Of a stretch of 64,000 bases of DNA, positions 1 to 20,762 are shown one piece after another; position 1 is the stretch's first letter, and each line of letters starts with the position of its first letter. A program made the position numbers and the translations under genes. The stretch is taken from contig JAJDYI010000069.1 of the NCBI GenBank assembly GCA_022825235.1, forward strand, positions 1 through 64,000. Reading direction: 5' to 3'. The notes under the pieces are model-generated. The model did no database searches. It had not been told where the DNA came from and saw only the letters and a list, made by a program, of their open reading frames with translations. Origin of the DNA: Alphaproteobacteria bacterium. Lineage in GTDB: Bacteria; Pseudomonadota; Alphaproteobacteria; TMED109.

Positions 1-141
1 TCGCACCGCCACCGCCGCCCAAGCGACGCGGCCGGCCACCCAAACCACGGAGGAGCGACGACTGAACTGGCTCGTCACCAACCCCCACAACTGGGGAAAA
101 TTACTTCGGCGCTTCTGGGGAAATTTACTTCGGTATTGACA
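1..141 (+). mobile_element. End of an insertion sequence, possibly IS21-like (partial)
   Basis: Two near-identical units, CTGGGGAAAATTACTTCGG (91-109) and CTGGGGAAATTTACTTCGG (115-133), lie just before the point where the adjacent recombinase frame loses its homology. On the minus strand the edge reads TGTCAATACCGAAG. Tandem terminal repeats beginning TGT are typical of IS21-family ends, so I infer an IS end at about 141. A plus-strand frame ending with TGA at 63-65 encodes a proline-rich tail containing RRGRPPKPRR and could be the last residues of the element's helper ATPase (IstB) or another IS protein. The rest lies outside the window. The family assignment is tentative. Confidence 0.42.
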
Positions 142-1320
142 GTTGGTCTCCTCGGCCCACGCACGCATGGCCTCGGCCGCCGCTTCCGGCGCCATCAGCT
201 TCTCCTTCAGCCCCGCCAGCACGCGTTTCTCGAGGACCGTGCGACGGATGCCGCGGCTGTTGGCGCAGCTCCCGTTCATGACGTGGTTTGAGCAGCCGTA
301 GCGGTCCTGGCCGCGCATGGAATAGGGGCCGCCGCAGACGCCGCATTCGAGCAGGCCCGAGAGCAGGTGGCGGGGCCGGTGGGCGCCGTTCAGTCGGTTG
401 GCGTGCGTCGACCGCACGGCCTCGATGACAGTGGCGTAGCGCTCCGTGATCGCCCCCTGCCGGTCCTTCACCGACTGCCAGAGCGCATCGTCCACGATGC
501 GGAGTTCCGGCACCTCCTTGACGATCCATTGCTCCGGCGGGTTGAGCCGCGACACGCGCTTGCCCGTCTCCGGGTTCTTGATGTAGCGGAGCCGGTTCCA
601 GATCAGGCGGCCGATGTAAAGTTCGTTGTTGACGAGCCCGGTGCCGCGTTTCACGTGGCCCCGGATGGTGGAGTCGTTCCAGAGCTTGCCGGACGGGCCG
701 GGGATGCCCTCGTCGTTGAGGCGCCGCGCGAGCGCGCGCGGGCTGACCCCGGCCGCGAAGTCCCGGAACACCCGGCGCACGACGGCGGCTTCGGCCTCGT
801 TGACCGTGCGCCCGCCCCGGACGGGCTCGCCGGCGCCGTCCGTGGCCTTCACCACGTCGTAGCCGTAGCAGAGCCCGCCCCCCGAGCGGCCCTGCTCGAC
901 GCGGCCCCGGAGCCCCCGGCGGGTCTTCGCCGCGAGGTCCTTCAGGAAGAGCGCGTTCATCGTGCCCTTGAGCCCGACGTGGAGCTCGTTGATCTCCCCC
1001 TCGGCCAGCGTGACGATCATCACGCCCGCGAACTGCAAATGCTTGTAGAGCGCCGCCACGTCCGCCTGGTCCCGGCTCACGCGGTCGAGCGCCTCCGCCA
1101 CCACGACGTCGAACGCGCCCCGCCGCGCGTCCTCGAGCAATGCCTGGATGCCCGGGCGGAGGATCATGCTGGCGCCCGAGGTCGCGGCGTCCCGGTAGCC
1201 GCCCGCGACCGTCCAGCCCGACCGCTCCGCGTGCTCGCGGCAGACCCGGAACTGGTCGTCGATCGAGGCAGCGCGCTGCTGATCGGAGGAGTAGCGTGCG
1301 TACAGGGCGGCACGGGTCAT
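142..1320 (-). pseudogene. Large serine recombinase, 3' end truncated by insertion
   Basis: About 393 residues of a resolvase/invertase-type site-specific recombinase are readable from ATG 1320. The N-terminal catalytic domain starts with the YARYSSDQQ motif, whose first serine (residue 11) is the probable nucleophile. A Recombinase DNA-binding domain follows (about residues 160-280), then a zinc-ribbon segment with CGVCGG and later Cys residues (about 325-350). The homologous reading stops near position 142, at the putative IS end. The frame then stays open to the window edge without resembling a recombinase coiled-coil tail. Members of this family integrate and excise mobile elements, so this is probably the element's own recombinase, now inactivated or shortened. 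It starts one base after the stop of the 77-aa gene upstream, implying coupled expression. Confidence 0.8.
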
Positions 1321-1925: not shown

Positions 1926-3194
1926 TTACGACAGGCGGGAAAATCCCGGAAGCAGCAAAGTGGACGGAAGTGCGATTCGGTCAGACGTTTTCAAGCGCTT
2001 TAGTGACCGGGAACGCTCCTTCCCATCCTGATCCAGAACTGCAAATTCTCTTTCCCTGAAGAGCCGCAAAACGACCTCATCCAGATCAGAGAAACGTGCT
2101 GCTGTTCGATTGGCAAACATGTGTCGAAAGGTCTCTATCGTTACTGGCTCTTCCGACACCAGACTGAACAGCTCTCTTGGGAGTTCGTTCAGCAATTCCT
2201 CGTGCATCCGTTGCGCGTCCAGATCCTGAAACCTGAACAGCGGCAGGGTTCCGCCCTCGAGCAATGCATCCCATCCCAACATTCCAAAGCTCCCAATTCC
2301 GCAATGCTCGAACGTATTCTGAACGTCCCAGTGGCGCTGGATCATCACGTCCCTGGCGGTCGGGTGTCTTGAAAGATGCAGAAACCACAATGCCCGGCGG
2401 GATTGTTCAGGACGAATGAAAAACGGAGTGTCGTAGGTTGCTCCGGTCAGAATTCGGGTGTGATCGCGTAGCGTTCTTTGCACAAGCGCCTTCCCGCCAT
2501 ACCCGTCCCGATCTTCGATCAAACTGCGGATTCGTTCGTCACTAAGTCCCACCGGTTTTGCCGCCGTGACCATCTGTGGTCTTTCTGAAAGAAAGTTGAT
2601 TAACGAGTCTGCAGCAAACGTGAGGATGACTTCGGCGGCTGGCAGCTCACTGAAAATTCGTGCGATAAGAGTGAGCTCCACTTGGGCGAAGCCAGTCTGG
2701 TCAAGCAGAAAAATTGCTCGGCCGGAACGAGGCTGCCTTTGATGAATCGACTTCAAGATGCTGTCAAGCTCATTCTCGAAAGGACCCGTCCTGACAACGA
2801 TCTTGTTACCGTCGCTGGCAGGTTCGCGTTGCGCCAGAACCTTCTGCAGATGATCGGTGTGCGCCTTTTCCTTATCCACGAAATAGAACTGACAATCGAC
2901 AGCCAGCGGCTTGATGCGGTTGTGATTGAGGCGGGTTTTTGCCGTTTCAGCTTCCTCCAGCATGACCAACGGTGAACCGGGCAATTCGTCACTTCCATCC
3001 GAGAACAACCCACCGCCTGCAAAGCCGTCAACCAGATCCAGTTTGAATTCGTCCCGATGTGGGCTGACGTTCAATCTGTCGAAGTAGGCCCGCAGATACC
3101 GACGCAGAACGCGAAGTTTTGCCTTGCTGTGGGCTTCAATTTGCGGCGGCTTTTCGTCAGGGTGCCATTTGAAGTTCTTGCCTTTGGAGTTCAT
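1926..3194 (-). CDS. tcmP: Three-Cys-motif partner protein TcmP
   Basis: 422 residues matching the TcmP family, named for its constant genetic association with a three-Cys-motif protein. The N-terminal part has a Rossmann methyltransferase-like glycine motif, DLVDGFAGGG (residues 53-62), followed by CQFYFVDKE and a later FLLDQTGF segment resembling methyltransferase motif IV. The C-terminal half is helical and charged. The start at 3194 lies inside the end of the upstream DUF5131 gene (38-bp overlap), so the two are translationally coupled. The biochemical role is unknown. The location beside restriction genes on a mobile region suggests defence or nucleic-acid modification, which is inference. 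G+C appears lower than in the neighbours to the right, consistent with transfer. Confidence 0.85.
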   Translation of the reverse strand: MNSKGKNFKWHPDEKPPQIEAHSKAKLRVLRRYLRAYFDRLNVSPHRDEFKLDLVDGFAGGGLFSDGSDELPGSPLVMLEEAETAKTRLNHNRIKPLAVDCQFYFVDKEKAHTDHLQKVLAQREPASDGNKIVVRTGPFENELDSILKSIHQRQPRSGRAIFLLDQTGFAQVELTLIARIFSELPAAEVILTFAADSLINFLSERPQMVTAAKPVGLSDERIRSLIEDRDGYGGKALVQRTLRDHTRILTGATYDTPFFIRPEQSRRALWFLHLSRHPTARDVMIQRHWDVQNTFEHCGIGSFGMLGWDALLEGGTLPLFRFQDLDAQRMHEELLNELPRELFSLVSEEPVTIETFRHMFANRTAARFSDLDEVVLRLFREREFAVLDQDGKERSRSLKRLKTSDRIALPSTLLLPGFSRLS

Positions 3195-3936
3195 GTTTTC
3201 TGTCCTTTGCTTGGGGGTAGCGGGGCATGGCGTTGTGCTCTACCCCGTCAAGCTCGCGTCCGCCGGCCTTCGGCGTGAGTCCCCCCCACTGCTTGAAGAA
3301 AAACGGTACGTCGTCACGCGCGCATTGATCGCGGATATCAAGAACCCACTCCACACACAGCGAACGAGCATTGGGGCCGCTTTCACCGCCGACGATCACC
3401 CACGAAATTCCGTCGAGATCAATCTCACCGACAGGACCCAGGAGCGGCTCGATCGAAAGAAACCGGATCGCGGCGGGTGCCGCTTGCAAATGTTTAATCC
3501 GCGCCTTCCCGGTACTGTCCTCAACCGATACGCCACACCAAATGTGTTCAGGGGCTCGGCCATTGGCATATCTGCGCCGCAAATAGCCCCGCATCAGGGA
3601 GCTGCGTTTCGTCAAGACCTGGTAAATGTGCCGGTCCTCGGCTTCCATCTGTTCAAAAACTTTGTCGATGAACTGGCGTGGAACACGCTTGTGAAACAGG
3701 TCACTCATCGAATTGACAAAGATCTTCCGCGGCTTACGCCAGCGTGCTGGCTGATCCAGGCGCTCCGGCCAGATCCTTAAGTCAAAGCCCTGCTCATAGG
3801 GGTGCCCCTTGATGCCACGCCACCGTTCCGCAAAACGCGCTGCATAGCAGTTCTCGCAGCCGCGCGTGATCTTGCTGCAACCCGTCACCGGGTTCCAGGT
3901 CGCATCAGTCCACTCGATTCCGGATCTGTCCGCCAT
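3157..3936 (-). CDS. Phage Gp37/Gp68-like (DUF5131) three-Cys-motif protein
   Basis: 259 residues. The N-terminus has the family hallmark WNPVTGC-SKITRG-CENC, that is Cys20, Cys27 and Cys30 spaced C-x6-C-x2-C, which probably ligates a metal or iron-sulfur cluster in a radical-SAM-like barrel. Further conserved blocks in order are FVNSMSDLFH, VLTKRS, WCGVSVED, FLSIEPLLGP, WVIVGGESGP and PFFFKQWGG. This family is common in phages and mobile islands; its reaction is not established to my knowledge. The length fits full-length members. A good sigma-70-like promoter lies about 55 bases upstream, and the downstream partner tcmP overlaps it by 38 bp. Confidence 0.88.
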   Translation of the reverse strand: MADRSGIEWTDATWNPVTGCSKITRGCENCYAARFAERWRGIKGHPYEQGFDLRIWPERLDQPARWRKPRKIFVNSMSDLFHKRVPRQFIDKVFEQMEAEDRHIYQVLTKRSSLMRGYLRRRYANGRAPEHIWCGVSVEDSTGKARIKHLQAAPAAIRFLSIEPLLGPVGEIDLDGISWVIVGGESGPNARSLCVEWVLDIRDQCARDDVPFFFKQWGGLTPKAGGRELDGVEHNAMPRYPQAKDRKHELQRQELQMAP

Positions 3937-3991
3937 GTTGCTGCTCTTGTAGAGCCTTCCGTTTAGTTTACAGATGTTGCTGAAATGTTCA

Positions 3992-4019
3992 ATTATAGTG
4001 CTGTCTGCCGTTTCTGCAA
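3992..4019 (-). promoter_or_regulatory. Sigma-70-like promoter for the DUF5131-tcmP pair
   Basis: On the minus strand TTGCAG (4019-4014) is followed after 16 bases by a perfect TATAAT (3997-3992). The -10 box lies about 55 bases upstream of the ATG at 3936. The surrounding 100 bases are AT-rich compared with the rest of the window. Confidence 0.6.
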
Positions 4020-4102: not shown

Positions 4103-5107
4103 TTATCCGCGATCTGTGGAGCTATTTCCGGGACTCCAAGCGCTGGCGTCTAGCCCCCTGACCCGACTTCCGAAAACACGATGCAGGTCGTTGAGGCGCC
4201 CCGCAAGCCATTCATGCTGTCGCGACCAGTCCTTCTCATCTTCAGGGTCGACGTCGTCTAGATACACCGCTATCCGGCTGTCTTGGCCGTCTGGAAGCTC
4301 TTCCCACTGCAAGGAGTACTCAAGTTCATGCTCAATCCCTTCCCTTTGTTCACGCAGAAGGTGAAAAAATGCCTTGGCGTTGGGTCCGCTGAGGTATAGC
4401 TCTGATCGAATCTTCCTGTCCGCTCGAATCATTACTGCACTGAGTTGAATGTTACTCCTCCCAATTGAATATCCCATCCAGGATTGCGGTTGCGGCTTAC
4501 GGATTCCGGAAATCGGTCCGTCAATCGTTCTCAGCACCGCGTGGAGTGCCTCCCAGTAGGCGCGTTGCATGATGCGCGTGTCGGAAAGCTCTGCTTCGTC
4601 GATCGTACGCGCAGCTTGCGCGACCCACTGCGACCAGTCGTTCGGCTTCGATACGATATTGAACTTGGGTGCCGCCAATGAGTTTCCGATCCGCCATAAT
4701 TCGATTTCCAGGCCGAAAAAGTTGAAGCCTTCTTCCGTGATCCTATTCAGCCAGTCGAGAGTTGCTCGGTGTTCTTCCGTGAAACTCGAAGCTATCCAAA
4801 CAATCGTTACAGCTTCCAGTCCGGAGGCATAAGTCAGCAATTGCCCAAGGTGGTTGTGGTCCGTCCGTCTGAGTTGGTTCTCGACCAACACCCATGCATT
4901 CGAGCCGGTGTCCCTGCACAGAATATCCGCACGAAATGGACCGACCGCCCGTTCCGATGCCTCAAGCTCCAAGTCTATGCCGAGCGTTGCGGCGAGGATG
5001 GCAAGATTTTCTTCTTGGGCTAGCCAAGGAGTAAAATCAGTGGCTTCGTGCTTCCAGATTTCGGTCAAGTCGACGGAACTAAGTCGGCCAAGCGCGTCAT
5101 TGTTCAT
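4103..5107 (-). CDS. DUF4268 protein with PD-(D/E)xK-like nuclease domain
   Basis: 334 residues. The N-terminal half looks like a PD-(D/E)xK-superfamily fold: GPFRADILC with Asp61, then WVLVENQLRRTDHNHLGQL with Glu76-x-Gln78, the Gln-containing variant seen in some members. The C-terminal half (about 180-320) fits DUF4268. The ATG overlaps the stop of the upstream restriction-methylation gene as ATGA, so the two form one translational unit. DUF4268 proteins are often encoded beside restriction-modification genes; an accessory nuclease or specificity role is plausible but unproven. Nothing is truncated. Confidence 0.8.
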   Translation of the reverse strand: MNNDALGRLSSVDLTEIWKHEATDFTPWLAQEENLAILAATLGIDLELEASERAVGPFRADILCRDTGSNAWVLVENQLRRTDHNHLGQLLTYASGLEAVTIVWIASSFTEEHRATLDWLNRITEEGFNFFGLEIELWRIGNSLAAPKFNIVSKPNDWSQWVAQAARTIDEAELSDTRIMQRAYWEALHAVLRTIDGPISGIRKPQPQSWMGYSIGRSNIQLSAVMIRADRKIRSELYLSGPNAKAFFHLLREQREGIEHELEYSLQWEELPDGQDSRIAVYLDDVDPEDEKDWSRQHEWLAGRLNDLHRVFGSRVRGLDASAWSPGNSSTDRG

Positions 5108-7962
5108 ATCCGAACGTCCCTATCGTTCAGCGACCGATGGCGCGTTAGCAGATTCCGCAGCGCCTCGTCGCTGGAAATCCCCGCATCCCATCCATACGCT
5201 GCCGCGACCGCTGCGTCGAGGTCCGCATGCACGTCGGCAAGCCATTGCGGGCGGGCGTTGTAGAGGTTGGTCAGCGTCTGCGCCTTGAGTTCCTTCGCCG
5301 CCGCGTCGTCGCGGGCGACCGGACGCTTTGGATAGCCCGGCACCGGTTCGTCCACCCACTCCACCCATTCGGGCGGATTCAGCCATCGGTTGCGGAGCTC
5401 GACCAGCCGTCGGGCGGCCTCCGCGATGGCAACGGCGCGCGGGTCGGAGGCGTAGTCGGCGGCAGGGATGTCCGGCGAGAGGCCGTCCGGGAAGGGGAAG
5501 GTCTCGAAGGTCGTGGTCGGCGTGTAACGAGGATCGTTGCCCTTGCCGAGCCATGTCCCCAGTCGCAATGACCACGCCTCGTGGAATCGGCTGTGCAAGA
5601 TGCCGAAGGTCACGTCGTCGTCGCGGGCAATCGCGACTGTCGCACTATCGGGGCAAACCCTCGCGTCGAGCAAGACGAACACCCGATGCTTGGCGACCCG
5701 TGGGGTTGCTATGTAGCGCGGCAGTCCGTGAAGCGCCCGCCACATGCCCGGACGGGTCTCTCCGTGCCGCCACCAATATCTGCGGTGTCTTTCTCGTCGC
5801 ATTCCGAGGCGCACCGGCTTCACATGCTCAACGACATGCGCGAATGGGGCTTCGTAAAGCGCCGCATCAGCTTCGCTCATGGAGTCTCCGAAATCGACGA
5901 TCCACTTGCCGGCAGACCGGCGGGTCAGGTCCATCCCGTTCACCCACGGCTTGAGGACGTCAGTGTTGGGCCGGCCATTGGGATTAGCAGGCAGACAAAG
6001 CCACTCCCGCGCAACTTCTCCTGGAACTTCAAATGGTCCCGACTTTTGGTCACCGATAAAAGCCGTATTTCGGTTCCGAATCAGTTTCTCAGCCTTGGTG
6101 AGGTCGGCACCATTGGCACTCAAGTCCGCAGAAATTCGATCTGTTTTCACTCCATTAAGATGAACTGGCAGTGAGGAAGATTTCGCAGCGAAGCTAATCA
6201 GCGATACCCGCACGGCGGCACCTTCCACTACCCACGGTTCATCTGACCAGGCATCGAAAATGGCGGCGTGAGCGTCTATCCAATCGAGCACTGCACGATT
6301 CGTGCCGCCGCGGATCGAGTTCGTGGCCACCAGCCCCGCCCGCCCGATCCTGCCGCCCGCTACCAGTTTCCCGGCCTTATGGAACCAATAGCAGACCAAG
6401 TCGGAAAACTGTGGCAGCGCGCCTTCGTAGACCCTACGCAACCGACCTGTGTAATCTTCCCCCAATCCGTCGAGCAGTAACTTGGCTCCTAGGAACGGCG
6501 GGTTGCCGATCACGACGTCGGCCTCCGGCCAGTCCGGTTCGGTCCCGTCGGGCGTGAGGATCGCATCCCGGCACTCGATGGTCTCGAGCGGGTCAAGGAT
6601 CGGGTCGGTCGATACGCCGAACCCATTGCGCCGCATCCACTGGATCTCGCCGATCCAGACCGACACGCGGGCAAGCTCCGCCGCGTAGGCGTTGATCTCG
6701 ATGCCCTTCACGTTCGCCGGGCCAATCTCCGGGAACACGCGGTCCAAGCCGAGTTCCTCCGCTTCGAGTTGGACCCGGTGCTCGATGTCCTTCAGCGCGT
6801 GCAGCGCGAGGTAGAGGAAGTTCCCCGAGCCGCAGGCGGGATCAAGCACGGTGAAGCTCCGCAGCCGTTCGAGGAAGGTTCGGAGCGCCCGGTCCGCCTG
6901 TCGCCAAAGCCGTGTCCGCGCTGCACGCGACCCCGCTGCGTCCGCACGTTCGACCAGGCCCGCGATCCCGGCCTTTGCCGTTTCCCATTCCGCAAGAAGC
7001 GGGCGCACGATCACCGGTTCGACAATTCGCATGATCTTGTCACGGTCGGTGTAGTGAGCGCCGAGCTGCGAGCGCTTGTCCGGGTCGAGCCCACGCTCGA
7101 ACAGCGTGCCGAGAATTGACGGGTCGATCTCTGACCAGTCGAGCGCCGCAGCCCTGATCGCGGTCTCCACCCCTTCCCGATCAAGCGGCAACGCGGTGTC
7201 GGTGTCGAAAAGCCCACCGTTGAACCAGGCGACAGGTTCGATACCAAGCCGACCGCCCGTCGCCATGGCCCCGAAAAGACTACGTGCCAGTGATACGAAT
7301 TCGTCCGGATTGCGCCTCGCCTCATGGAGCAGGCGAGCGAACATGTTGCCGGGCAGCAGGCCCACGTCCTCTGCAAACATGCAGAAGACCAGCCGGTTCA
7401 CGAAGTGTGCCACCGCCTGCGGGTCGTGCCCCCGGTCGCGGAGGCCCTGCGCAAGCTCGGCGAAGGTCGCGGCCGCGCGTTCCGTGACAGCCTGCCGCGT
7501 CTCGCCGGGCCGCAGCCGCTCCGGCTCCGACATCGCCCACTTGAGCTTGTCGCGGGTCGCGCCGTCGGCGAGATCGTCGAGCGTGAACTCGTGCGTCACG
7601 CTCACGCTGTTCGTCCAGTTGGTGCGAATGCGGAACCGCGCCATGTCCGAGACGATCAGCAGCGGCGGGTTCTCCAGGGCGAGCGCGTACTGCCGCAATT
7701 GATTGAACGCAGCGTCGAGGTCCGAACGCTTGCCCTTGTACTCCCAGGCGAAGAAGCCGCGCTTCCACACGTCAGCCCAGCCGCCAGCGCCGGTGTCCTT
7801 CCGCGCGCCCCGCTCGAAGCAGTACCATTCGCCCGCCGGGTCGGCGTCCGTCGGCGTCGGCTCGCCGAGTAGGCGGCACAGGTCGTTGAAGTGCGACTGC
7901 GCCGCCGCGCTCTCCTTCAACTCCGACGCCCGCCACTTGGCGATGAACTCGCCCGGCGTCAT
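5104..7962 (-). CDS. MmeI-like type IIG/IIL restriction-methylation enzyme
   Basis: 952 residues in a single polypeptide. The N-terminal nuclease has Asp64 and Glu74-x-Lys76 (in WEYKGK), the same spacing as the D-ExK triad known in MmeI. A helical spacer follows, then the gamma-class N6-adenine methyltransferase with motif I DPACGSGNF and motif IV IGNPPF (NPPF). The C-terminal third should be the target-recognition domain. Such enzymes cut DNA about two turns from an asymmetric site and protect it by methylating one strand. All visible key residues are present, so it is probably active. It is first in a two-gene unit with the overlapping DUF4268 gene. Confidence 0.9.
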   Translation of the reverse strand: MTPGEFIAKWRASELKESAAAQSHFNDLCRLLGEPTPTDADPAGEWYCFERGARKDTGAGGWADVWKRGFFAWEYKGKRSDLDAAFNQLRQYALALENPPLLIVSDMARFRIRTNWTNSVSVTHEFTLDDLADGATRDKLKWAMSEPERLRPGETRQAVTERAAATFAELAQGLRDRGHDPQAVAHFVNRLVFCMFAEDVGLLPGNMFARLLHEARRNPDEFVSLARSLFGAMATGGRLGIEPVAWFNGGLFDTDTALPLDREGVETAIRAAALDWSEIDPSILGTLFERGLDPDKRSQLGAHYTDRDKIMRIVEPVIVRPLLAEWETAKAGIAGLVERADAAGSRAARTRLWRQADRALRTFLERLRSFTVLDPACGSGNFLYLALHALKDIEHRVQLEAEELGLDRVFPEIGPANVKGIEINAYAAELARVSVWIGEIQWMRRNGFGVSTDPILDPLETIECRDAILTPDGTEPDWPEADVVIGNPPFLGAKLLLDGLGEDYTGRLRRVYEGALPQFSDLVCYWFHKAGKLVAGGRIGRAGLVATNSIRGGTNRAVLDWIDAHAAIFDAWSDEPWVVEGAAVRVSLISFAAKSSSLPVHLNGVKTDRISADLSANGADLTKAEKLIRNRNTAFIGDQKSGPFEVPGEVAREWLCLPANPNGRPNTDVLKPWVNGMDLTRRSAGKWIVDFGDSMSEADAALYEAPFAHVVEHVKPVRLGMRRERHRRYWWRHGETRPGMWRALHGLPRYIATPRVAKHRVFVLLDARVCPDSATVAIARDDDVTFGILHSRFHEAWSLRLGTWLGKGNDPRYTPTTTFETFPFPDGLSPDIPAADYASDPRAVAIAEAARRLVELRNRWLNPPEWVEWVDEPVPGYPKRPVARDDAAAKELKAQTLTNLYNARPQWLADVHADLDAAVAAAYGWDAGISSDEALRNLLTRHRSLNDRDVRI

Positions 7963-17637: not shown

Positions 17638-20600
17638 CTACATGCCGAGGTCGAGTTCGACCGGCTTCGGCGCCGGTTCCATTGCTTTTTCGTTCGCGGA
17701 GTCACGCTCCGACCCGCGCGCATGTCCACGGCCGCGGTCGATGGCGCTGCCGTTGCCACCGGATTCCCGGCCGCTCCGGTGGCGCCCGGGGCCCGGTTCC
17801 GGCAGATTTCCGTTGCGGTCGCGGCCGGTTTTGTAGCGGGGACCGGGCCCGCGGCCGTACTCCGCTGGCGCCTCGCGGCCGGCGCCGCGCCCCTGGTCCG
17901 CCGCCTCCGGCGCGTGCAGCGCATGGCCGCGCTCGCGTTCGTTCGCTCCCTTGACCCCGAACACCGTGTCATGGGCGGCCTGCAGCGCCACCCCGTCGAG
18001 CGCCGCGACGCGCTCGCCGGTGGCCCTCTGGAGCTGGTCGGCGAGCTTCCAGGCGTCGTCGGTGATGAGTTCGGCGCGGTCCCGCGCCCGGCTGATCGCC
18101 ACGTAGAACGCCTGCTGCGTGGTGAGCCGGGAGTTGTCCGCGGGCATGGCGGCGATGATCCGGTCCACCGTCCGGCCCTGGAACGCGTGCACGGTCGCTG
18201 CCCAGGCGCGGTCGAGATGGCGGAGCTGGGGGTCGCCGTCGGCGAGTTTCGCCGCCGATCCGTCCTCCAGGCGGAAGCGGACGCCGTCGCGTTCGATCCG
18301 CTCCACCGTCGCCATGGCGCCGTTGACGAGGCCGGAGCCGGGGGCGTTCCGCGTCCAGCGCACCCGGTCGCCGGCGCGCAGCTCCATCGCCTGGCTCCGG
18401 AAGACCTCGACGCCGCCCTTCGCGGCGGCCAGACGCTCGGGCGCCCACTTGACGATACGGCCCTCGCCGTCCGCGAGATCGACGCGGCCCCAGCGGTGAT
18501 CGACGCCCGCGACGCGGCGCTCGTCGCCGGCCACGATGCCGAGGGTCTTGTACGGACGGTTGAAGATCACCGTGTCGCCCCGGGCGTAGTTCGAGGCGAC
18601 GGTCATCTCGGCGCGGGTCAGGCTTCGCGAAACCAGCTTCTCGCCCTGCCGGGCGGGCCCGCCGATGGCACCCTCGGCCACCAGGTCCGATCGAATCGTC
18701 TCGTTGATCGTGTCGCGGAGGACGCGCGTCGGGGCGATCACGCCGGCCGCGGCGCGCTGTTCGGGCGAGAGCCGGAGCCAGCGGGCGGCCGCGGCTTGTC
18801 CGAGCTCCTTCTTCTCCACCTGCGCGATGTGCCCGTCGAGCTTGGCGAAGGCGGCCCTGACCTCGCCCGTCAGGCTCGCCTTGACCGCCGCCTTCAGCTC
18901 GGCGTCGCGCTGGCGGACGATGTCGTCCATGACCGCGGTCTGCATCCCGGCGGCCTTGAGCTGCGCGAACGGCTTGCCGGCCTCCACGGCGCCGAGCTGC
19001 TTCTCGTCGCCCACCAGGACGACGCGGGCAAGGCGGAGCGTGGTCGCGGCGCGGAGCAGCCTCCGCATCTGTTCGCTCGATGCCAGCGAGCTTTCGTCGA
19101 CCACGAGGACGGTCTTCGCAAACTGGCTTCGCAGGTTGCGGAGGCCCTTCGCCGTGCCCCGGCTCTCGATGACCCCGGCATGGCGGGCGAGGAACCGCTG
19201 GAGGGTCTCGGACCCGATCCCGGACTCCCGCTCCAGCGTCTGCGAGGCCGACGCCGAGGGCGCCAGGCCGATAACCCGGTGGTTGCGGCTCTCCGCGAGC
19301 GCCCGGAGGCGCTTGAGCATCGTCGTCTTGCCCGTACCGGGATATCCCTGTACGCCCACCACCCGATCTCGCGCGGCGAGGATCGCCTTGACGGCGGCCT
19401 TCTGCCCCTCGTTGAGCCTTCCCCGGTGCAGCTTGGTCTCCGCCACCCAGCCCCGCATGATGGCCTTCTCCGCGCCCTGGCCGGCGCGCATCAGGTCGAG
19501 GGTCTCAGCTTCCCGGGCGAGCGCCGCGTCCGTCGTCCAGTGCCGGCCGTGGTCGAGGCCTTGCGCGGCGTGAAGCCCGCCCTGGCGTTCGAGCGAAGCG
19601 ATTGCCCGCTCCGCAGCCTCCACCGTGACGGCGCCGGGTTCGCGGCCGAGCGTCGCGGCGAGGAGATCGCTGTGCCCGAACACCGCCTGGCGCTCCGAGA
19701 GGTGCTCGACCGCCCAGCCCGCGGTGGCGACCGCCGCGTTGCCCGGGTGCGTAAACAAATCCGGCGGGGAGCGGTCGCGCTCAGCCTGCCGGGCGTTCGC
19801 GTGGATCGCGTCGGGCGAGAACCCGAGCATCGACGCCTGGAGCTTCCAGGTCTCGCGCAGTCTCCCCTTGTCCACGTCGCGCTTGTGCGCCCGCGTCATG
19901 AGGGTGGCGCGCGCGGCGAGGTGGGGGTTCTCCACCGTCGTGCCGAGGCCGCGCTCGGCCATCGCCGCCTCGATCTCCGCGCGCCGTGTGGAAAAGGCCT
20001 CGATCACGTCGCGGGGGACGCCTTCGATCTCGAAGCGGCCGTCCGCGTGCGTCTTCTCGATGCCGTACCCGAGTTCCTTCAGGCCCTCGGCCAGCTCCGC
20101 CCGGTAGATCGCGCCGATCGCCATCTTCTCGCGGTAGAGGCCGTCGTTGACCATCGTCCGCCACTTGCCCTCGTCACCCTGGACCATGTTGGCGATCACG
20201 CAGTGCGTGTGGAGTTGCGGGTCGAGGTTCCGCGAGGTGTCGTGCCGGAAGGTCGCCGCCACCATCTTCTGCCCGCCCACGCGGATCATCGCGCCGGTCG
20301 CCTTGTCCTGCACCCGGGTCCGGACGGCGTGCTCCTCGATCCACGCGAGCGTGTTCCCGACTGCCTTGTCGTGCGCATCGATAATGCGCACGTCGCCGCC
20401 CACCATCGCCATGAGGGAGACCGACTTCGGGGCGGAGAGCGTGACGTCACGGCCGGGGCGGTGGAGGATCTCCCCGTCCTTGCCGCGCTTCCCGAGTTGC
20501 GGCCCGTCCGGGATCCTGCCCTCGAGGATCAGCCGGAAGGTGTCGGGATCGACCAGCCCCGCGAGCCCGAGCGCCTCGGCGCCCTTGCCGGCCCAGCAGC

Positions 20601-20703
20601 TGGCTTCCTTGTGCGCGGGGTCGTCCTTCGCGTAGTAGCCATCGCGTTCGTAGTAGGACGCGCCCTGCGACGGCGAGGCGATGGCCCCGATGGAGGCTAC
20701 CAT
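17638..20703 (-). CDS. MobF-family conjugative relaxase/helicase (TraA/TrwC-like)
   Basis: About 1021 residues from ATG 20703. The TrwC-type relaxase domain (1-300) has N-terminal tyrosines in SYYERDGYYA and the metal-binding HUH segment HDTSRNLDPQLHTHCVIAN. The helicase part has Walker A GYPGTGKTT, Walker B VLVVDESSL and late motifs around VHAFQGRTVDR and QQAFYVAISRARD. The tail is a low-complexity Gly/Arg-rich region ending LDLGM. Such proteins nick at oriT and unwind the transferred strand. No mating-pore or coupling-protein genes are visible, so the element may be mobilisable only. An oriT should be close but was not recognised. Confidence 0.92.
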   Translation of the reverse strand: MVASIGAIASPSQGASYYERDGYYAKDDPAHKEASCWAGKGAEALGLAGLVDPDTFRLILEGRIPDGPQLGKRGKDGEILHRPGRDVTLSAPKSVSLMAMVGGDVRIIDAHDKAVGNTLAWIEEHAVRTRVQDKATGAMIRVGGQKMVAATFRHDTSRNLDPQLHTHCVIANMVQGDEGKWRTMVNDGLYREKMAIGAIYRAELAEGLKELGYGIEKTHADGRFEIEGVPRDVIEAFSTRRAEIEAAMAERGLGTTVENPHLAARATLMTRAHKRDVDKGRLRETWKLQASMLGFSPDAIHANARQAERDRSPPDLFTHPGNAAVATAGWAVEHLSERQAVFGHSDLLAATLGREPGAVTVEAAERAIASLERQGGLHAAQGLDHGRHWTTDAALAREAETLDLMRAGQGAEKAIMRGWVAETKLHRGRLNEGQKAAVKAILAARDRVVGVQGYPGTGKTTMLKRLRALAESRNHRVIGLAPSASASQTLERESGIGSETLQRFLARHAGVIESRGTAKGLRNLRSQFAKTVLVVDESSLASSEQMRRLLRAATTLRLARVVLVGDEKQLGAVEAGKPFAQLKAAGMQTAVMDDIVRQRDAELKAAVKASLTGEVRAAFAKLDGHIAQVEKKELGQAAAARWLRLSPEQRAAAGVIAPTRVLRDTINETIRSDLVAEGAIGGPARQGEKLVSRSLTRAEMTVASNYARGDTVIFNRPYKTLGIVAGDERRVAGVDHRWGRVDLADGEGRIVKWAPERLAAAKGGVEVFRSQAMELRAGDRVRWTRNAPGSGLVNGAMATVERIERDGVRFRLEDGSAAKLADGDPQLRHLDRAWAATVHAFQGRTVDRIIAAMPADNSRLTTQQAFYVAISRARDRAELITDDAWKLADQLQRATGERVAALDGVALQAAHDTVFGVKGANERERGHALHAPEAADQGRGAGREAPAEYGRGPGPRYKTGRDRNGNLPEPGPGRHRSGRESGGNGSAIDRGRGHARGSERDSANEKAMEPAPKPVELDLGM

Positions 20704-20762
20704 CGCCGCGGCCCCGCGGCGGTGCGTTGAAGGCGCGGGTGTCCCGGCGTACATTCGGCGGC

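Follow-up and report, generated by a model that had tools for sequence, protein, structure and literature searches.

A mobile DUF5131-TcmP gene pair with repeatedly exchanged TcmP partners: two predicted SAM enzymes and a possible role in defence

In the stretch of 64,000 nucleotides of alphaproteobacterial DNA that is analysed here (the window), two overlapping genes encode a DUF5131 protein, predicted to be a radical-SAM TIM-barrel enzyme of the spore-photoproduct-lyase-like kind, and TcmP, predicted to be an RlmJ-like class I SAM methyltransferase with a C-terminal winged helix. Among the relatives of this pair, TcmP partners have been swapped repeatedly while DUF5131 is conserved. It is the repeated swapping of one partner that is new here; the pair as such is already known as a defence candidate in PADLOC-DB. 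The reading that we favour, tentatively and with slightly less than even confidence, is that the pair is a mobile module of two SAM enzymes that modifies nucleic acid, most likely in defence against phages or other elements, and that TcmP is its exchangeable target selector.

Results

The DUF5131 (Gp37/Gp68) gene, with 259 codons for amino acids, occupies positions 3157 to 3936, and the gene for TcmP, with 422, positions 1926 to 3194; both lie on the minus strand, with DUF5131 upstream and TcmP downstream, where the initial annotation had placed them. The first product matches PF07505 (E 5e-94; 314.9 bits against a cut-off of 28.9) and the PADLOC models PDC-M30B/M41B (E about 1e-99), and the second matches TIGR04474 (E 6e-56; 190.3 bits against a cut-off of 53). 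The 38 bp overlap that had been claimed for the two genes follows directly from the coordinates of the open reading frames (3157 to 3194, minus strand) and suggests that they are translationally coupled; among relatives, the usual spacing is a few bases. Neither protein matches a nuclease family in searches with Pfam, TIGR and PADLOC-type profiles, and the pair itself is not made up as a restriction-modification system is; the type IIG enzyme of the region is encoded by a gene separate from the module.

Ahead of the pair lies a candidate promoter, TTGCAG-16-TATAAT (3992 to 4019, minus strand), which had been described as a good sigma-70-like promoter. This description holds for the -10 element, whose perfect TATAAT occurs nowhere else in the 64 kb and is placed about 55 bp ahead of the DUF5131 ATG, but not for the -35 element TTGCAG, which matches at three of six positions, and because of this a generic promoter scan of the window did not find the minus-strand promoter. 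Sequences that, like this one, agree with the consensus at 9 of 12 positions are not commoner in the window than chance would have it (6 found, 5.2 expected from shuffled sequence), the nearest relatives show no conserved counterpart of the promoter upstream of their genes, and the window has fewer terminator-like sites than chance predicts. That the sequence acts as a promoter is plausible and unproven.

The AlphaFold2 model of DUF5131 (pLDDT 94) has a TIM-barrel fold with a three-cysteine loop near the start of the barrel, as in radical-SAM enzymes. The six top matches of the model in the PDB are all spore photoproduct lyase (SPL), with Z 13.4-13.5, an rmsd of about 2.9 and about 196 residues aligned, and these are followed, near Z 11, by SuiB, viperins (Z about 11.4) and RlmN; Foldseek with the same model gives E 1e-3. 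When the DUF5131 profile is compared with that of SPL-like, Rv2578c-type enzymes from the same bacterial class, E is 1e-4 and the cysteines are aligned: NPVTGCSKITRGCENCYA of DUF5131 is set against NPYRGC---EHGCIYCFA, with the same three cysteines and three residues extra. PDB sequence searches with the single proteins, DUF5131 and TcmP, gave nothing useful, and a PDB search with the DUF5131 profile gave no match.

The three cysteines, reported at the outset as a C-x6-C-x2-C motif, are indeed present as C20, C27 and C30, in a loop (3847 to 3879, minus strand) that is predicted from its invariance and its alignment with the SPL-like loop to bind a [4Fe-4S] cluster. None of them varies in any of the 118 paired relatives, and the same pattern is found in 37 of 37 solo DUF5131 relatives. 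The usual, but not universal, cysteine spacing of radical-SAM enzymes is CX3CX2C, from which the CX6CX2C of DUF5131 departs. Since the spacing is noncanonical, and the assignment to the superfamily rests on the fold and on the position of the loop, we state this assignment as a prediction. SPL and the SPL-like enzymes have the barrel fold and the position of the Fe-S loop in common with DUF5131, which differs from SPL in its cysteine spacing, in being shorter and in an identity of about 12%; the comparison covered fold and Fe-S loop, and the modelled likeness does not lead us to class DUF5131 as an SPL. A distant homologue is radical SAM mobile pair protein A (TIGR04471; E 7e-22); DUF5131 reaches 78 bits where the cut-off is 355, and the family is named for partnering a second radical-SAM protein, not TcmP. 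In mycobacterial prophages, some DUF5131 genes (records H48, H53, H55 and H57) carry the annotation 'RNA methyltransferase', for which no support was found here.

For TcmP, the best structural match of the AlphaFold2 model (pLDDT 86) is RlmJ, the 23S rRNA (A2030-N6) methyltransferase (Z 16.3, rmsd 3.0, 212 residues aligned), followed by Trm1 (Z 14.2). Comparison of the TcmP and RlmJ profiles gives E 5e-9 with a probability of 96%, and a PDB search with the TcmP profile finds RlmJ at 0.01. The two have the fold, motif I and the positions of the catalytic Lys and Asp in common. In the profile alignment, Lys26 of TcmP (3117 to 3119, minus strand) is the equivalent of the catalytic Lys18 of RlmJ (motif X), and motif IV, D165-Q-T-G168 (2691 to 2702, minus strand), is the equivalent of D164-P-P-Y. 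Both K18 and D164 are required by RlmJ (PMC3814359), and both K26 and D165 are kept in 121 of 121 paired TcmPs, despite a shared identity of only about 20%. In motif I, D56-G-F-A-G-G-G62, which is the putative SAM-binding loop (3009 to 3029, minus strand), G60 is likewise found in 121 of 121, and D56 in 118 of 121 with Glu in the rest. The residue that follows the Asp of motif IV is P in 95 and Q in 25 of the 121 TcmPs; the motif is D-P-x-G in most and D-Q-x-G in 25, the window's TcmP included, and not the DPP(Y/F) of RlmJ (PF04378). The predicted C-terminal winged helix (residues 323-391; 2022 to 2228, minus strand) is a weak match to GMT-wHTH, with an E of 0.0034 that is below the cut-off, and among 43 sampled TcmP relatives PF22560 matches this part in 22 at E<=0.001, with a best value of 8e-15. 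TcmP differs from RlmJ also in this extra domain and in being mobile, paired and fast-evolving. With the catalytic residues kept and motif IV different, TcmP is probably an active methyltransferase, yet not an RlmJ.

The occurrence of the two genes is strongly coupled and at the same time asymmetric. Among 385 genomes of the class, TcmP is over its cut-off in 29, and DUF5131 is present in 29 of these 29, while DUF5131 occurs in 54 genomes, in 25 of which there is no TcmP; the probability of such co-occurrence by chance is about 5e-29. In a set of 80 loci from named genomes, gathered by DUF5131, TcmP lies within the locus in 70 and adjacent in 68, and most of the remaining loci are near contig ends. 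The pair is spread widely in bacteria and is found also in some archaea and phages, and at two loci, one from Latescibacterota (L063) and one from Caldilineales (L092), the two proteins are fused in a single reading frame with DUF5131 first. On viral contigs, DUF5131 is solo at 34 of 66 resolvable loci. To exemplify, phage Sparky has a solo DUF5131 gene among the replication-region genes of its early region, and in phage Easley the pair is flanked by the integrase and immunity repressor genes, at a site typical of genes that are expressed from the prophage. Because many phages carry DUF5131 without TcmP, a strict joint mechanism of the two proteins is not universal. A similar situation is found in bacteria of one genus, where genome G026 has the pair and genome G158 has a close DUF5131 relative (L307) with no TcmP detectable beside it.

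The genome of the window has a second pair, divergent from the first in a comparison by locus (contig C68:51.8-53.6 kb; L194:9784-11687), in which TcmP comes first and has a reading frame that is broken towards the C-terminal end. This copy adjoins genes for transketolase and D-Tyr-tRNA deacylase, i.e., it has housekeeping surroundings, and from its position and its broken frame follows that not every copy sits in a defence neighbourhood.

How the partners are exchanged is seen when the TcmPs are divided into three motif classes (D-Q, GPW and other D-P). On the TcmP tree, 4 changes of class are needed; on the DUF5131 tree there are 29, a number that is approximate in that branch support is not demanded for each change, and that is to be compared with a mean of 39.7 and a minimum of 35 when the classes are shuffled on the same tree. 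When DUF5131 is at least 80% identical, which is the case for 29 pairs of loci, the TcmPs still differ in class in 11; in one such comparison (L052 and L058) the DUF5131 proteins share 92% and the TcmPs 16%. One DUF5131 may also be accompanied by two TcmPs, as at loci L036 and L046 and in Acidovorax, Burkholderia and Paraburkholderia. This is the pattern that is expected if specificity resides in TcmP and the shared chemistry in DUF5131.

The surroundings of the pair in the window indicate mobility. A serine recombinase gene with Resolvase, Recombinase and zinc-ribbon domains is found by profile search at about 125-1320 (minus strand), so that the pair lies at the border of what is probably a mobile element, and a TrwC-type relaxase-helicase of 1038 amino acids, found in the same way at 17638-20754 (minus strand), indicates a conjugative or mobilisable origin of the region. 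Together with the patchy presence of DUF5131 in the genus (2 of 7 genomes), these two genes mark a putative mobile region in the window. An MmeI-like type IIG restriction-methyltransferase is encoded upstream of the pair, at 5104 to 7962 (minus strand; PF20473, E 6e-29; PADLOC REase_MTase_IIG, E 1e-303). The pair had been described as next to a restriction enzyme, but between the two lies a gene for a DUF4268 protein (4103 to 5107, minus strand; PF14088, E 5e-26), which is the PADLOC single-gene candidate PDC-S11 (E 2e-122) and overlaps the type IIG gene by 4 bp. The possibility that the pair is functionally a part of the MmeI-like enzyme was set aside, as relatives have the pair without that enzyme. 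In Mycobacterium sp. E740 (L113:10001-18120) the pair is found beside a type IIG enzyme and a large helicase-like protein, in an arrangement like that of the window. As a whole, then, the initial annotation stands with respect to reading frames, overlap, cysteine motif and pairing, and went too far in the strength of the promoter and the adjacency of the restriction enzyme.

Elsewhere, defence genes recur near the pair. At annotated plasmid loci, CBASS is found near it in Agrobacterium and Sinorhizobium, the Acidovorax pair adjoins a cluster of methylase, helicase and GIY-YIG nuclease genes of restriction-modification type, the Paraburkholderia pair adjoins DUF262 genes and the Methylobacter pair Tn7-like transposition genes; on a Pseudomonas plasmid, dndB lies about 9 kb from the pair. 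A statistic for association with defence islands, as had been proposed with the initial annotation, gives modest enrichment: PADLOC matches at E<=1e-20 number 12 or more among 386 flanking proteins and no more than 2 among 264 controls (Fisher p 0.035), where the first count is a lower and the second an upper bound, and where neighbouring genes are non-independent. Of 16 control regions, 13 come from the same contigs as the test loci, and a third test set, from named genomes, is without controls of its own. This supports, and does not establish, a defence-gene association of the pair.

That the biochemical function of the pair is undescribed, as had been stated, agrees with our literature searches, in which no biochemical or functional study of DUF5131, PDC-M30/M41, TIGR04474 or GMT-wHTH was found, but the idea of defence exists already. 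PADLOC-DB lists the candidates PDC-M30 and PDC-M41 with the same two components as the window pair, B being DUF5131 and A being TcmP-like. In the window the A and B components are both matched, by overlapping genes; its TcmP, which has the divergent long D-Q-x-G form, matches the A models of PDC-M30 and PDC-M41 with E 3e-18 and 2e-12. The listing is one of guilt-by-embedding candidates, and most PDC candidates of this kind are unvalidated (PMC12988326). PDC-M30 occurs in 32 of 100 P. aeruginosa strains, and phage resistance is seen in 68.8% of these, a correlation and no more (PMC10855318). For Sinorhizobium meliloti, one expression table (PMC12445080) lists both the tcmP gene SMa2243 and the Hna defence gene SMa2245.

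Discussion

Consider how a module of this kind might work. DUF5131 would generate a 5'-deoxyadenosyl radical at the cluster held by C20, C27 and C30, and TcmP would select and methylate a base in DNA or RNA. The two would work on one and the same nucleic acid, either joined in a complex or one after the other, and the compound modification would inactivate or mark the target. TcmP would then be the part that is exchanged and sets the specificity, and DUF5131 would supply the chemistry that the pairs have in common. Computationally, there is a good case for two active enzymes and for their functional coupling, while complex formation, substrate, order of reactions and defence outcome are what we infer. 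Against the two-enzyme reading stand the cysteine spacing, which is not CX3CX2C, and a motif IV without the PP(Y/F) of adenine-N6 methyltransferases. A nucleic-acid-modifying defence module, judged plausible in the initial annotation, is supported by the folds, the invariant catalytic residues and the genomic context.

The strongest rival starts from the asymmetry between the genes, since it best explains why DUF5131 is found alone and TcmP, in the 385 genomes compared, never is. According to this toxin-antidote, or restriction and protection, scheme, TcmP sets a harmful mark which the SPL-like DUF5131 strips from the host, and the solo DUF5131 of phages, including that in the early region of Sparky, is counter-defence. 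The lyase whose fold is nearest to that of DUF5131 undoes a DNA lesion, a single DUF5131 coexists with two TcmPs, and G158 retains DUF5131 when TcmP is missing beside it, all of which is in line with this scheme. Yet DUF5131-TcmP fusions are odd for the maker and the remover of one and the same mark, nothing indicates that TcmP is toxic, a solo DUF5131 may have another job, and a TcmP that is a mere adaptor would yield the same asymmetry. It is because of the fusions and the adaptor alternative that we place this scheme lower and consider it unlikely. In a more specific form, which we regard as decidedly unlikely, the exchangeable TcmP classes would mark the invader, the conserved DUF5131 would erase the mark from the host, and lytic phages would have taken the eraser as counter-defence.

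The kinship of the folds may also be read in terms of RNA. The nearest folds to TcmP are those of RlmJ and, in second place, Trm1, both of them RNA methyltransferases, and the structural matches of DUF5131 include RlmN, a radical-SAM enzyme that acts on RNA, so that the pair could be imagined to mend or modify tRNA or rRNA damaged by phages and in this way protect translation from its place on mobile elements. With its patchiness in the genus, its fast swapping and its site in a prophage immunity region, the pair fits a conflict module better, and RNA repair is in our view quite unlikely. Viperins, which are among the next-best folds for DUF5131, suggest instead a free nucleotide, modified by the radical enzyme and tailored by TcmP, that poisons phage polymerases. 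The prokaryotic viperins are a precedent for radical-SAM enzymes in phage defence (PMC12926258). They make ddh-nucleotides, whereas DUF5131 is closer to SPL, with a fold score of 13.5, and has a methyltransferase partner, whose winged helix and RNA-methyltransferase-like fold suggest a polymer as substrate; a viperin-like role is highly improbable.

Returning to the module of two SAM enzymes that modifies nucleic acid, its link to two enzymes of known mechanism gives concrete residues and products for testing, and the swapping of partners together with the solo DUF5131 genes of phages makes the counter-defence hypothesis directly testable. If the favoured reading is true, radical-SAM chemistry on polymers would join phage defence, beside that of the viperins.
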